This document shows, piece by piece, positions 54 to 4,181 of a stretch of DNA of 9,244 nucleotides (positions within the stretch are counted from its first letter, which is position 1; each line of letters begins with the position of its first letter). Location: positions 1-9,244 of the forward strand of contig CAQRXS010000051.1 of assembly GCA_948874605.1 (NCBI GenBank), written 5' to 3'. The position numbers were made by a program, and so were the translations under genes. The notes beneath the pieces were generated by a model, which was not told the DNA's origin, did no database searches, and saw nothing but the letters and a program-made list of their open reading frames with translations. The DNA comes from an uncultured Bacilli bacterium (GTDB taxonomy: Bacteria > Bacillota_I > Bacilli_A > RF39 > UBA660).

Positions 54-758
54 CTATTTTTTTGATTGAATTAATGTAATTGCAATAAGAATGAAAACTA
101 CAGCAACTAATCCAATAATGATGTAATTTACACTTTGAGGATTATTAACGGCATCATTTACAACTGCTGCGGTTAGAAAGTAATCAGAACAGTGCTCGAT
201 TTGAAATTCTACGTAACCATTTTTTACTTCTACATCTTTTGCAATATATTCAATGTTATCATTTTCGGGATTATAATAATATAAATACAAGGACTCTCCA
301 TTTTGAAAACGTTCACTTACATTTATTTTAACGGTTGTTTTTAAAGGTAACTCACCATGATAATCAAAAGAAATAATTAATTTTTTTTGATTTACTTTAT
401 CTTCAATACGATTCGCCCCAGAAGTAGTACTATCTAAAGAAAGTCTTAGGTCTTCTGTAATATACATACTATCTTCTACTGAAATATTTTGGTCTTTCTT
501 TTTTTCAAATTGCCAAGAATAACTTAAATTTCTTTCATAATCCGTAATACTATAAAAATAATAATCTTTTGTTTCAATTTTCTCGATTTTTGTCTTTGGA
601 TTATTATAAGCTACTGAATTATCTTGAAATCTTTCTAATTCTATTGTTTCGATAGATTCTTTTTTATTTACAAAAAGGAAAGAGATGGAAACACCAGTAA
701 TGATGATTCCAATGGTTAAAATTAAACTAAAAATTATATAATTATTTTGTTTTTTCAT
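54..758 (-). CDS. Membrane-anchored surface protein, unknown function (234 aa)
   Basis: I do not recognise a named family. The protein has an N-terminal hydrophobic segment (about residues 7-29) followed by NKK, a polar and probably extracellular region (31-210), and a C-terminal membrane segment (211-230) ending in QSKK. The outer region is rich in Tyr and looks like beta structure; its last part (about 155-197) reads LYLYYYNPEN, then HCSDYFLT. From memory this 'YYYN ... H-S-D-Y-x-L' pattern recurs in surface proteins of gut Firmicutes; that is a recollection, not a search result. The ATG at 756-758 follows GGGAG about nine bases upstream. The gene starts 26 bases after the stop of the CPBP-family gene, so the two are probably co-transcribed. 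No clear terminator follows; a poly-G promoter-like element starts at once. Confidence 0.8.
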   Translation of the reverse strand: MKKQNNYIIFSLILTIGIIITGVSISFLFVNKKESIETIELERFQDNSVAYNNPKTKIEKIETKDYYFYSITDYERNLSYSWQFEKKKDQNISVEDSMYITEDLRLSLDSTTSGANRIEDKVNQKKLIISFDYHGELPLKTTVKINVSERFQNGESLYLYYYNPENDNIEYIAKDVEVKNGYVEFQIEHCSDYFLTAAVVNDAVNNPQSVNYIIIGLVAVVFILIAITLIQSKK

Positions 759-784: not shown

Positions 785-1459
785 TTATTTTAGTAGCTCA
801 ATAATTAGCATGGTCAGTGGCATCAAATTATATACAAATTTCATAATCATTATTACAACAATGTTCCGATTATTTTTGACATACAAATAACTGATTAATA
901 ATGACGGGATAAAATATGTTAACCAATATAATACTGAAATGTTCGCAGTATTAAATGCAAATGGTAATAAGCTATATATTAATGAACTAAGAAGAATAAA
1001 TAAAACGTTATTTTCTATAATTCCACTGAGTGACTCACGATATAAAATTTCTTCTGCGATTACCCCAAAAATCATAACTTTGAAAATAGCATATACAGGA
1101 GCTACTTTGGCAAGATCTTGAATCGATTCCATATTGGCATCCATCTCGACATTCGGATAGAATATTTCACTCACAAAAGATAAAATAATATTTATTACTA
1201 ATACTCCTAAAAAGTAAAGAAGGACAATACCTAATATTTTTTTCCAATTATATTCTTTTCTTAATTGTTGCCAATCTTTTTTTAAATCTTTATAAAATAA
1301 GAAGCAAACAAATCCTAAAAAGAAAATATCAAATATTAAATACATCGCTTTGCCATTCATCAAAGTTATTGTTTGAGCAAAAAATGCAGCTAATTTGGAA
1401 TATAAAAAATATAATAAATAAATTCCCACTACCTTTAAAAGTTTTTGATTTTGTTCCAT
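785..1459 (-). CDS. CPBP-family (CaaX protease/bacteriocin-processing) membrane protein, degenerate (224 aa)
   Basis: This multi-pass membrane protein shows the CPBP (Abi/Rce1-like) signature: the EExxxR motif as EEILYR (Glu136, Glu137, Arg141), the later 'YFIPSLLISYLYVKNN.NI' stretch (about 182-200), and a final helix containing Asn211. Active CPBP proteases also have FxxxH and HxxxN motifs. Here the equivalent positions read YSLLP and KFVYN, so both histidines appear replaced by Pro and Lys. It may be non-catalytic, for example an immunity or scaffold protein. The start is ATG 1457-1459, preceded by GGTGAG five bases upstream. The frame stays open up to 1543, but that stretch carries the gene's own promoter. 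It follows the small W-rich ORF and its terminator, and runs on into the two-TM surface protein. Confidence 0.8.
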   Translation of the reverse strand: MEQNQKLLKVVGIYLLYFLYSKLAAFFAQTITLMNGKAMYLIFDIFFLGFVCFLFYKDLKKDWQQLRKEYNWKKILGIVLLYFLGVLVINIILSFVSEIFYPNVEMDANMESIQDLAKVAPVYAIFKVMIFGVIAEEILYRESLSGIIENNVLFILLSSLIYSLLPFAFNTANISVLYWLTYFIPSLLISYLYVKNNRNIVVIMIMKFVYNLMPLTMLIIELLK

Positions 1460-1515
1460 AGTCTCACCACTTTCTATAATAAGAATATCATATAATTTAA
1501 GATATTTCTTTAGAA

Positions 1516-1543
1516 ATTGTACTGTTGACAAAAAATTTGACAA
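1516..1543 (-). promoter_or_regulatory. Sigma-A promoter of the CPBP-family gene
   Basis: The minus strand carries TTGTCA (1538-1543), a 16-base spacer and TACAAT (1516-1521). It lies directly downstream of the terminator hairpin at 1544-1577 and about 55 bases before the ATG. Its position inside the upstream open frame supports the shorter CPBP protein. Confidence 0.5.
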
Positions 1544-1577
1544 AGAAAAAGAGCCAACTCATCATGACTCTTTCTCT
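1544..1577 (-). terminator. Hairpin terminator after the 10-codon ORF
   Basis: In minus-strand RNA a 13-bp stem forms between AGAGAAAGAGUCA (1577-1565) and UGGCUCUUUUUCU (1556-1544) around an 8-base loop. The 3' arm is itself U-rich and continues into UUG. Two of the pairs are G-U, which would be C-A mismatches in plus-strand RNA, so the structure fits minus-strand transcription. It ends the small unit starting at 1687 and any read-through from rpmA, four bases after the small ORF's stop. Confidence 0.7.
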
Positions 1578-1580
1578 AGA

Positions 1581-1613
1581 TTAAAAAAATCTTTTCCAAA
1601 TCCAATCCCACAT
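1581..1613 (-). CDS. Ten-codon Trp-rich small ORF (MWDWIWKRFF)
   Basis: ATG at 1611-1613 is preceded by a strong ribosome binding site (AGAGAGGTGA, seven bases between GAGGTGA and ATG). The ORF reads M-W-D-W-I-W-K-R-F-F and stops at TAA (1581-1583). Three of ten residues are Trp, two are Phe, and the net charge is about +1. It has its own extended -10 promoter upstream (1659-1687) and a hairpin terminator just downstream. The complete promoter-RBS-ORF-terminator layout argues for translation. I know of no family it belongs to. It could be a regulatory leader peptide (Trp codons followed by a terminator, then the CPBP gene), a signalling peptide, or a small membrane-active peptide. An in-frame TTG ten codons upstream lacks an RBS and is less likely. 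Confidence 0.6.
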   Translation of the reverse strand: MWDWIWKRFF

Positions 1614-1658
1614 GGTTTTCTCACCTCTCTTTATTCTCTTCAAGTATATTACATTTAT

Positions 1659-1687
1659 ATGATAACACACAATACTTTATTTATCAA
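1659..1687 (-). promoter_or_regulatory. Sigma-A promoter (extended -10) of the small ORF
   Basis: The minus strand reads TTGATA (1682-1687), a 17-base spacer, then TATCAT (1659-1664) preceded by TGT, an extended -10. Transcription would start near 1652 and end at the hairpin near 1541, giving an RNA of about 110 nt. It lies between the rpmA stop and the small ORF. Confidence 0.55.
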
Positions 1688-1714
1688 GTTGGCAATTACT
1701 TTACATTTTTCTAT

Positions 1715-2624: not shown

Positions 2625-2640
2625 AATTCCCTCCTTCTAA

Positions 2641-2725
2641 ATTAAGACACGCCGCGTAAGGCACAAGTAACTTGTTTTAAAACCTGACACGTGCGGTTTT
2701 ATAAAAGCTAAAATTAAGCTTTTCA
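2641..2725 (-). ncRNA. Structured 5' leader of rplU (L21-leader type)
   Basis: Between the promoter and the RBS the minus-strand RNA can form three hairpins: AAAAGCU/AGCUUUU (2703-2723), AAAACC/GGUUUU (2679-2700) with a GC-rich 10-base loop, and ACAAG/CUUGU (2663-2675). The loop sequence GCAC can pair with GUGC (2661-2664), and CCGC can pair with GCGG near 2651-2656, so a pseudoknot or alternative fold is possible. The segment is clearly GC-richer than its surroundings. L21 leaders upstream of rplU are known in Firmicutes and are thought to mediate autoregulation by the ribosomal protein; the assignment rests on position and structure, not on a covariance search. Confidence 0.6.
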
Positions 2726-2799: not shown

Positions 2800-3570
2800 T
2801 TATTTCTTTAATCGCCAATAATATTTTTCTAAAGCTTCTTTCTCATGTATATAATGACTCTCTGAATAGTAAAAATGTAATGTTTCTTTTTTTAAGGAAT
2901 TAAAATCTAATTTTGTTTCATTTTTTATTTTTTTATATGGATATTCTTTTAGAGTTCTTTCTAAAAAGAAACGGCGAATGATATATTTTTCTTGTTTTTT
3001 TAATAGGATAAATTGTGTGATTAAAACTCCACAAATAAAGTAATTGTCAAGATGTAATATAATATTTAAATATAAAAAAACTAAGAAAAACAAAGCTGAA
3101 AAGATTTCATAAACGAAAAACGCTTTTTTATAAGGAAGTATTTTTTCTAAAATGGAATGTAGTATGATACTACCATCTAGGGGAATGATAGGTAGCAAAT
3201 TAAAGATTAGAATTGTAAAATTATAGGTTTGGAAAAGTAAGTAATTATTATAAGTTAAACATCTTTCTTTTAGAAAAATCAAAATAAGTCCTAAAAATAT
3301 TTGACTTATAACGCCTGATATAGCAATCAAAATTTCTTTATTAATGGAAGAATTAATTGGTTTATCAATGTGAGTTAATCCACCAAAAGGGAAAAATTCT
3401 ACTTTTAAAAATTTGTATTTACATAAATGTATCATAATAATATGCCCAAATTCATGAACAACAATAATGATAAAGATGAAAAGCGTTTGTTTAAAATATC
3501 CACATAAAAAAGAAAGTAAAAAAAAGAAATATGTTGCAACATTAAGATGAAATTTCTTGATATTTTTCAT
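2800..3570 (-). CDS. spoIVFB: SpoIVFB-like intramembrane site-2 metalloprotease (M50)
   Basis: The 256-residue membrane protein has the M50 zinc motif HEFGH (His39, Glu40, His43) in its second hydrophobic segment. The second zinc-ligand motif is FNLLPIIPLDGS (Asn124, Asp132). In Bacillus the protein cleaves pro-sigma-K in the outer forespore membrane. About six hydrophobic segments are visible up to residue 190. The basic C-terminal part (191-256, IIRRFFLERTLKEY onward) resembles the start of the SpoIVFB CBS-domain tail but is shorter than in B. subtilis (256 against 288 residues overall). The start overlaps the end of spoIVFA by 29 bases, with GGAG about 12 bases upstream, so it probably depends on coupling. 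The gene order spoIVFA-spoIVFB-rplU matches Bacillus. If the host does not sporulate, it would be another S2P-type protease. Confidence 0.9.
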   Translation of the reverse strand: MKNIKKFHLNVATYFFFLLSFLCGYFKQTLFIFIIIVVHEFGHIIMIHLCKYKFLKVEFFPFGGLTHIDKPINSSINKEILIAISGVISQIFLGLILIFLKERCLTYNNYLLFQTYNFTILIFNLLPIIPLDGSIILHSILEKILPYKKAFFVYEIFSALFFLVFLYLNIILHLDNYFICGVLITQFILLKKQEKYIIRRFFLERTLKEYPYKKIKNETKLDFNSLKKETLHFYYSESHYIHEKEALEKYYWRLKK

Positions 3571-4165
3571 AAGTTAAATTTTCTCCATCTTTTACATAAA
3601 CTAAATAATAGTAATCATTTTCTGTATTTCCCAAAATGGTATTTGCTTCTACATAGTCATATAATTTTAGTGAAGCATCTGTAATTCCTCCATACCAAAT
3701 ATCTACTCCATCAACCCCTTGTATAATCATCGTATTGCCATAGCCTTCTTTTTCTCCCATAAAAACTAATATACCACTTGTGATGTTTTCAACAGGAGTT
3801 GTTGTTGAGGTAGTTAGTTTATAACCATCCAAGTATTCTTCCCTTTTTAAAGGAGTATTTGAATTTGATGAAACAAGGTTTTCTTTTGGCTCTGTAACTG
3901 TAGGTAAGATACTTCCAAATAATTCGTGATACCAATTATTAATTTTCATAAAAGTGAAATTGCTTTCAAAAATATTTTTTTTAAAATAATCTAGATTTTC
4001 TGGACTTAACTTTATATAAATTACACTGCTAAGTAAAAATATTACACTAAGAAGTATTTTTGTGAATACATTGCTTATCGTTGTATTTTTCTCGTCGTAA
4101 TTTTTTTTGTGAGGAGTGCTTTTTCTTTGTTCATGTCGTAATAATGCCATTTCTATTTCATTCAT
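3542..4165 (-). CDS. spoIVFA: SpoIVFA-like protein (degenerate LytM/M23 domain)
   Basis: The 207-residue protein has a basic N-terminal cytoplasmic part, one membrane segment (about 34-52), a linker rich in Ser/Thr (95-127) and a C-terminal LytM fold (about 128-197). The fold begins SGILVFMGEKEGYGNTMIIQ and ends with LVYVKDGENLTYEKYQEI. The zinc ligands of active M23 enzymes are absent: the usual YAHL strand reads WYGGI and no HxH follows. This is typical of SpoIVFA, which holds SpoIVFB inactive until a signal peptidase cuts it. I chose ATG 4163-4165 because AGGTGA lies five bases upstream; a GTG at 4172-4174 is inside that Shine-Dalgarno sequence. It sits directly upstream of spoIVFB and behind a sigma-E-like promoter. 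Confidence 0.85.
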   Translation of the reverse strand: MNEIEMALLRHEQRKSTPHKKNYDEKNTTISNVFTKILLSVIFLLSSVIYIKLSPENLDYFKKNIFESNFTFMKINNWYHELFGSILPTVTEPKENLVSSNSNTPLKREEYLDGYKLTTSTTTPVENITSGILVFMGEKEGYGNTMIIQGVDGVDIWYGGITDASLKLYDYVEANTILGNTENDYYYLVYVKDGENLTYEKYQEISS

Positions 4166-4181
4166 TTTTGTCACCTAACAA

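Follow-up and report, generated by a model that had tools for sequence, protein, structure and literature searches.

A candidate ten-codon, Trp-rich micropeptide gene next to a CPBP pseudo-protease gene in uncultured Bacilli

Is a Trp-rich ORF of ten codons, followed by an intrinsic terminator and then by the gene of a CPBP-family membrane protein, a leader that controls its neighbour or a small gene in its own right? The question arose from a first-pass annotation of a 9,244-base stretch of DNA of an uncultured Bacilli bacterium, hereafter the window, which is gene-dense and in which the minus strand predominates. Two options had been put forward: a leader peptide that senses charged tRNA-Trp and allows readthrough into the CPBP gene, or a free-standing micropeptide with the CPBP protein as its partner. 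Trp-operon-type and antibiotic-type transcription attenuators are built as a short ORF and then an intrinsic terminator, a layout that the unit shares. Genes of about ten codons normally escape annotation; by comparative genomics, the promoter, RBS, stop codon, terminator, regulator-like box and codon constraint make the reality of this one directly testable.

The micropeptide unit in the window and in related genomes

All the parts that had been read from the window, namely a promoter with an extended -10, a strong RBS, an ATG, ten codons with Trp as residues 2, 4 and 6, a TAA and a 13-bp hairpin, are present on the minus strand between positions 1541 and 1687 (Table 1). The hairpin, with an 8-nt loop and a stem that starts three bases past the stop codon, has a predicted energy of -16.6 kcal/mol, compared with -7.93 +/- 2.27 for shuffled sequences (z -3.82; as good a fold in 1 of 200 shuffles). 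The longer stretch 1530-1660 folds unremarkably as a whole (z -1.51; 14 of 200 shuffles as good), and thus the significance resides in the hairpin. Promoter matches in the AT-rich window are as frequent as the shuffle mean (48 found and 50.4 expected). The window by itself is therefore little proof, and the case rests on comparison.

Table 1. Features of the micropeptide locus, in window coordinates
Feature	Position	Strand	Basis or remark
Third gene, 234-aa protein	54..758	-	No family match above cut-off
CPBP/Rce1-like membrane protein, His of motifs 2 and 3 replaced by Pro and Lys, predicted all-helical	785..1459	-	Pfam, AlphaFold
Extended -10 (TGATATTCT) of the CPBP gene's own promoter	1482..1490	-	Extended -10 search
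Direct repeat TGTCAA-N6-TGTCAA upstream of the CPBP promoter	1525..1542	-	Repeat search; spacer 5 commonest in relatives
Intrinsic terminator hairpin, 13 bp, U-rich 3' arm	1544..1577	-	Fold; terminators of relatives' units
Micropeptide ORF MWDWIWKRFF, stop TAA	1581..1613	-	ATG at 1613-1611; codon constraint in relatives
Micropeptide RBS AGAGAGGTGA	1621..1630	-	Sequence; relatives' units
Sigma-70-type promoter TTGATA-17-TATCAT with extended -10 (TGTTATCAT)	1659..1687	-	TG before the -10
Direct repeat TGTAAA-N5-TGCCAA, 38 nt before the extended -10 of the micropeptide promoter	1689..1705	-	1 mismatch to TGTMAA-N5-TGTMAA

The relatives used here are, where titled, metagenome or uncultured assemblies. 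With the YsxB-like protein encoded nearby as the query, 12 loci were obtained, mostly from assemblies titled as Bacilli. One of them (L007) has the gene order of the window, L21-YsxB-L27-gap-CPBP, and its gap holds MLRWLLFWL with an RBS, an extended -10 and a terminator. Searching 36 genomes of the genus with the CPBP protein of the window yielded matches in 27 and strong orthologs in 19 (35-73% identity), 18 of which have a micro-ORF upstream, the exception being L035. Examples of their products are MFDWIWRMFR, MWWFWWMFR, MWWIFRIFF, MLAWLLRWL and MMGILAWFRRFF. A profile of the genus CPBP orthologs matched proteins in 182 of 291 family genomes, sampled evenly; 28 of these genomes stand out (E 4.6e-34 or better; next match 1.7e-26), two of which were already known. 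Among the 26 new loci, the ORF is present in 23, typically coding for peptides such as MWAWLRRFL, MWRWLTRFF or MWKWLARFF, while two have none (L062 and L076) and one is cut by the contig end (L075).

In total, an ORF of 9-13 codons lies upstream of 42 of the 45 evaluable CPBP orthologs (the window, 19 genus and 25 family loci, all from uncultured Bacilli), and a common form of the peptide is M-W-x-W-L-x-R-F-[FL]. The original reading was to be given up if relatives with the same gene order lacked or broke the ORF. We found no broken copy, but the three orthologs L035, L062 and L076 have no ORF beside them, and in L076 the CPBP gene still follows rpmA. In two genomes with a CPBP gene and no adjacent ORF (G111 and G114), two pattern searches did not find the unit elsewhere, and two weaker CPBP matches (L079 and L080) are without a micro-ORF.

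An exact pattern built around the consensus peptide had matches in 15 of the 385 genomes searched in the order, and its reversed version in 1 of 385. Three new units were obtained in this manner, two adjoining a CPBP gene (L081 and L085) and one adjoining hrcA (L084). The same pattern, which misses divergent peptides including that of the window, gave no match in a sample of 346 genomes of the class. A core pattern, which would miss many of the genus peptides, was run on 21 genomes, comprising 17 genus genomes in which no strong CPBP ortholog had been found, three whose CPBP gene has no unit beside it, and G041 as a positive control. It matched 14 places in 12 genomes: one is the control (L109), one a real unit (L114, kept outside all the statistics below), and the other 12 were rejected as units by inspection.

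For statistics, 45 units were selected by eye among RBS-preceded short ORFs, 44 of them linked to CPBP genes; the linkage count of 42 in 45 is less biased than this set, but depends on the same by-eye recognition. L074 and L077 fit the consensus most poorly, and the CPBP protein of L081 is distant (E 1.3e-19). An ORF of 9-13 codons with an RBS, at least one Trp, a net positive charge and 60% hydrophobic residues was found in 44 of the 45 selected units, all except L056, whereas 100 shuffles gave 0.38 on average and never more than 2 of 45. No such ORF was detected at 17 loci of CPBP paralogs, whose gene starts were placed only approximately.

The surrounding signals are similarly recurrent. 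Three of them were each found in 43 of the 45 units: an extended -10 before the micropeptide (on average 11.5 in shuffles, at most 18), a T-run hairpin behind its stop codon (on average 3.9, at most 9) and a further extended -10 ahead of the next gene (on average 7.8, at most 14). These -10 counts include elements at odd distances (L063, L064 and L081) and that of L069, after a riboswitch, which is probably a chance match. The proposal that the CPBP gene has its own promoter holds across the linked loci, 43 of 44 of which have the extended -10, with L053 as the exception.

No Rfam family was assigned to the unit, whether that of the window or those of the searched loci. In these sequences, Rfam matches comprise the L21 leader, one c-di-GMP-I riboswitch, a T-box, a group II intron end (RF00029, 43.5 bits, a fragment at L054:3023-3098 (-), at the end of the locus) and Histone3. 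The last one, at 2249-2295 of L061, lies on the opposite strand and overlaps the terminator region of the unit; as Histone3 is an animal family, we regard this match as chance.

Peptide sequence and coding constraint

Most of the peptides are nine residues long (33 of 45) and the others have 10-13 residues, 36 being of 9-10. Of the residues after Met1, a fraction of 0.775 is Trp, Phe, Leu or Arg (W 23%, F 23%, R 15%), and 44 of the 45 peptides have a net side-chain charge between +1 and +3. The number of Trp residues varies from 1 to 4, with a single one in 8 of 45. The helical hydrophobic moment is on average above that of shuffled peptides (percentile 0.77). The peptide sequence varies by clade, yet many peptides share one consensus across genera, and the Leu at position 5 is written with four different codons across species.

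Coding constraint was assessed on 22 disjoint sister pairs of nearest CPBP relatives, chosen greedily, some of them distant and four with identical ORFs. Nucleotide identity averages 0.81 in the ORF, against 0.70 in the 22 nt upstream (-40 to -18; Wilcoxon p 0.002) and 0.61 in the 30 nt downstream (Wilcoxon p 0.00016). The first-pass annotation had proposed to compare the ten codons with synonymous changes in relatives, and this comparison came out in favour of a coding function. In 16 same-length pairs there are 18 nonsynonymous codon differences, compared with 27.9 simulated (minimum 19 in 2000), and 9 synonymous ones, compared with 4.5 simulated (p 0.032, a modest value on its own). Selection thus appears to act on the amino-acid sequence of the micropeptide. 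One pair (L024/L025) has identical ORFs and only 0.40 identity in the 30 nt downstream; terminators get replaced. As far as sequence comparison can tell, the unit is well supported as a free-standing and complete coding gene, comprising a promoter and a terminator of its own around an RBS and ten codons.

The CPBP protein, genetic linkage and shared promoter boxes

The protein encoded next to the micropeptide in the window belongs to the CPBP family (PF02517, 7.8e-9, 36.1 bits for a cut-off of 22.4), and its AlphaFold model is a helical bundle (pLDDT 86.5) for which Foldseek found no significant fold match in the PDB. Active CPBP glutamic intramembrane proteases have a glutamate pair in motif 1 and His residues in motifs 2 and 3. 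The glutamate pair is present in 40 of the 44 linked CPBP proteins. The motif 2 His is replaced in 41 and kept in 3 of 44, and the motif 3 His is found in none, with Lys instead in 41. Both catalytic His are kept in 16 of 16 CPBP paralogs, which had been chosen by motif 1. The linked proteins therefore do not have the predicted active site of such proteases and, with the catalytic His gone, the CPBP protein should not cut the micropeptide, which makes the processing role initially suggested for it unlikely. The nearest NCBIfam model to the CPBP protein of the window is that of MroQ, a CPBP protease implicated in AIP processing; unlike MroQ, however, the protein scores far below the cut-off (30.7 bits for 270) and lacks the catalytic His.

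A closer likeness is found among non-catalytic family members. In the partial texts of two reports, SpdC is a CPBP/Abi protein said to be without key catalytic residues, which binds WalK and is under WalKR control (PMC5854430, PMC7387801). According to the same partial texts, SpdC/LyrA and LnsB resemble the CPBP protein described here in being non-catalytic, envelope-tied CPBP membrane proteins, and SpdC alone also shares control by a response regulator (PMC5854430, PMC7387801). No micropeptide and no third gene are mentioned in those parts of the SpdC/LyrA descriptions, and the likeness is one of description. As SpdC is non-catalytic, binds WalK and is controlled by WalKR, we favour an SpdC-like envelope module to which a micropeptide is added. 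Behind the CPBP gene, 31 of the 45 unit loci, the window among them, have a relative of the third gene, and 14 do not.

The micropeptide and CPBP genes can be apart. In genome G463, MWAWLKRFL is encoded before hrcA on contig 1, and the CPBP ortholog (E 9.6e-71) is on contig 4, behind another gene, with no micro-ORF of the same kind there. In G030, a unit coding for the same protein as that of G041 (MGWLLDWFRRFF) lies behind rpmA and is followed by rpsB, and the CPBP gene (L035) is on another contig, behind a different gene and without a micro-ORF. The names of the neighbouring genes, hrcA and trigger factor in G463 and rpsB and mscL in G030, are those that we presume by recognition. That both genes persist although separated, in two genomes, speaks for an action in trans, with the caveat that misassembly or misbinning could mimic such unlinking.

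In part of the units, both promoters harbour direct repeats of the same kind. The box TGTMAA-N5-TGTMAA, with at most two mismatches, occurs ahead of the peptide promoter in 17 of 45 units (2.4 in shuffles) and ahead of that of the CPBP gene in 23 of 44 regions (2.1 in shuffles). In the peptide upstream regions, 5 is the only tested spacer that beats the shuffle maximum; in the CPBP regions, spacers 3, 7 and 16 (10, 7 and 11 regions) also exceed all shuffles. The distance from the repeat to the extended -10 is fixed: it is 37-38 nt at 11 of the 45 peptide promoters, namely in 9 of 19 genus units (window counted) against 2 of 26 others, and 51-52 nt in 21 of the 44 CPBP regions.

The WalR (YycF/VicR) consensus is given as TGTWAH-N5-TGTWAH in the partial texts of two reports, and WalR boxes are thus similar to ours in having two hexamers with a 5-bp spacer (PMC4168254, PMC9210968). 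The box described here differs in being TGTMAA, often TGTCAA, with C as its frequent fourth base, and the WalR-like spacing combined with a fixed position is present in part of the units. No WalR ortholog above the cut-off (NF040534, 340 bits) was found in the 36 genus genomes, the best score being 213.2; the YycF model has matches in all 36, each below the cut-off. As both promoters, in part of the units, carry a repeat of the same kind in a placement like that of OmpR-family sites, the micropeptide and CPBP genes are probably switched on together, within a cell-surface regulon whose regulator would be of that type.

In genome G045, the exact box occurs 25 times and the reversed pattern 5 times. 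An extended -10 is found at 39-41 nt from 12 of the 25 exact boxes, and three boxes (L116, L120 and L139) lie inside long ORFs; L130, which was also flagged, is the CPBP site itself. At four sites (L115, L119, L125 and L132) the box, 39-41 nt from an extended -10, precedes genes that might form a surface regulon. The products of L115 and L125 have DUF285 repeats, that of L115 being also a PARCEL-repeat surface protein, and one of the four genes codes for an NPCBM domain. The product of L119, whose start is like that of L115, has no family match.

Possible roles of the micropeptide

Based on these analyses, the second of the two original options is the one that we retain: the linkage in 42 of 45 loci, the codon constraint and the similar promoter boxes speak for a free-standing micropeptide with the CPBP protein as its partner, the nature of the partnership being our proposal. 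A short mRNA made from its own promoter would yield an unprocessed, leaderless, cationic and aromatic micropeptide. The CPBP gene would form a second, separately transcribed unit, with the third gene behind it in the window and in the closest relatives. An OmpR-family response regulator may bind the repeat at both promoters in part of the units. The peptide presumably sits in the membrane interface and might act in trans on, or through, the SpdC-like pseudo-protease, thereby tuning envelope signalling or the display of surface proteins. We give this reading, a leaderless cationic aromatic micropeptide that is co-regulated and acts in trans with an SpdC-like pseudo-protease at the membrane, a probability of roughly 55%. 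The expression of the micropeptide, the response regulator driving both promoters and the membrane action with the pseudo-protease are the parts that we infer.

A more specific version is tentative, and we would not bet on it at even odds. In this version, these genes of 9-13 codons would be among the smallest free-standing ones, their product would be an interfacial membrane ligand or subunit of the pseudo-protease, and the pair would constitute a trans switch in a regulon of repeat-rich surface proteins, with a c-di-GMP input in one genome. That genome harbours a c-di-GMP-I riboswitch (L069:2484-2566 (-), RF01051, 52.5 bits for a gathering threshold of 35) upstream of the RBS of MLRWLRKFL, where c-di-GMP would control a nine-residue peptide. 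Such a micropeptide would be of a class distinct from the receptor-linked pheromones described so far, and would provide non-catalytic CPBP proteins, few of which have an assigned function, with a ligand. A literature search revealed no published report of such a gene, and six micropeptide strings were absent from the text searched, subscription papers being mostly outside both searches.

A leaderless pheromone, which would be exported unprocessed, accumulate and be perceived by the producing cells or their neighbours as LCPs or SIP are, is an unlikely alternative. In the partial text of the LCP report, most LCPs have 8-10 mostly aliphatic and aromatic residues, no leader and a strong RBS, and the micropeptides fit that description in length, hydrophobicity, lack of a leader and RBS (PMC10518010). 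Like SIP and the LCPs with RopB-clan receptors, as that partial text presents them, they are hydrophobic, aromatic, leaderless products of ultrasmall ORFs with strong RBSs in Firmicutes (PMC10518010), and their sequences differ between clades, as those of pheromones might. Nevertheless, we do not assign them to the LCPs, since the Rgg C-terminal domain of the receptors (PF21259) was found in none of the 36 genus genomes, in a search whose 14 control genomes included a match in Lactococcus lactis. Furthermore, many peptides hold one consensus across genera, with no fast diversification, and all but one are cationic. Unlike LCPs, they have a pseudo-protease neighbour, no receptor-regulator, a W-x-W-L-x-R-F core and a positive charge.

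It is rather improbable that the peptide is a micro-bacteriocin or otherwise perturbs membranes by itself, as a Trp/Arg-rich ten-mer against which the CPBP protein would serve as immunity factor or antidote. The abundance of Trp, Phe and Arg, the positive charge and the hydrophobic moment suit such an activity, and CPBP proteins are known as immunity factors. However, the peptide evolves under purifying selection, unlike the arms race of toxins and immunity proteins, and the two genes are unlinked in G463 and G030, which is unusual for immunity pairs.

The chances are slim that the unit specifies a regulatory small RNA in which the ORF is incidental or secondary. A short terminated transcript is predicted, the riboswitch of L069 lies upstream of one unit, and several units of another clade fold an extra hairpin between the stop codon and the terminator. 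Against this, conservation is on average higher in the ORF than in the tested flanks, its amino-acid changes are fewer than random, and terminators are replaced, as in the pair with identical ORFs. The extra hairpins, from single-sequence folds, belong to L060, L063, L065-L067 and L069-L073; in some species they start at or beside the stop codon, and the CPBP gene there has no third gene behind it.

The ribosome-controlled attenuator, in which translation of the Trp codons would decide on readthrough into the CPBP gene, is strongly contradicted. In its favour are the typical layout, a short ORF rich in Trp codons with a terminator and a gene right behind it, and the stem that in the window starts three bases after the stop codon. 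Against it, the CPBP gene has its own extended -10 in 43 of 44 linked loci, and the genes behind the unit of G463 and of G030 are unrelated ones, the CPBP gene being found elsewhere and lacking such a leader, so that leader, terminator and controlled gene are not together in cis. Only one Trp codon is present in 8 of 45 peptides, and 13 single-sequence folds inspected by eye revealed no common alternative pairing. The unit thus differs from known attenuators in having a downstream gene with its own promoter, in occurring without that gene and in showing no common antiterminator in these folds, and a Trp-rich ORF before a terminator is not necessarily an attenuator. A phage origin was also rejected: a longer pattern had no match in viral contigs, and the one viral match of an earlier seven-codon pattern (L013) is taken as a chance one, its frame continuing as a different, 21-residue ORF.

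Two other features of the window deserve mention. A ribosomal protein L21 leader (RF00559, 46.8 bits for a gathering threshold of 36) was detected at 2635-2708 (-). At 2800-4174 (-), a membrane metalloprotease-like and an M23-like protein are encoded in tandem, with weak NCBIfam matches below the cut-offs, a pair that we take to be like SpoIVFB/SpoIVFA.
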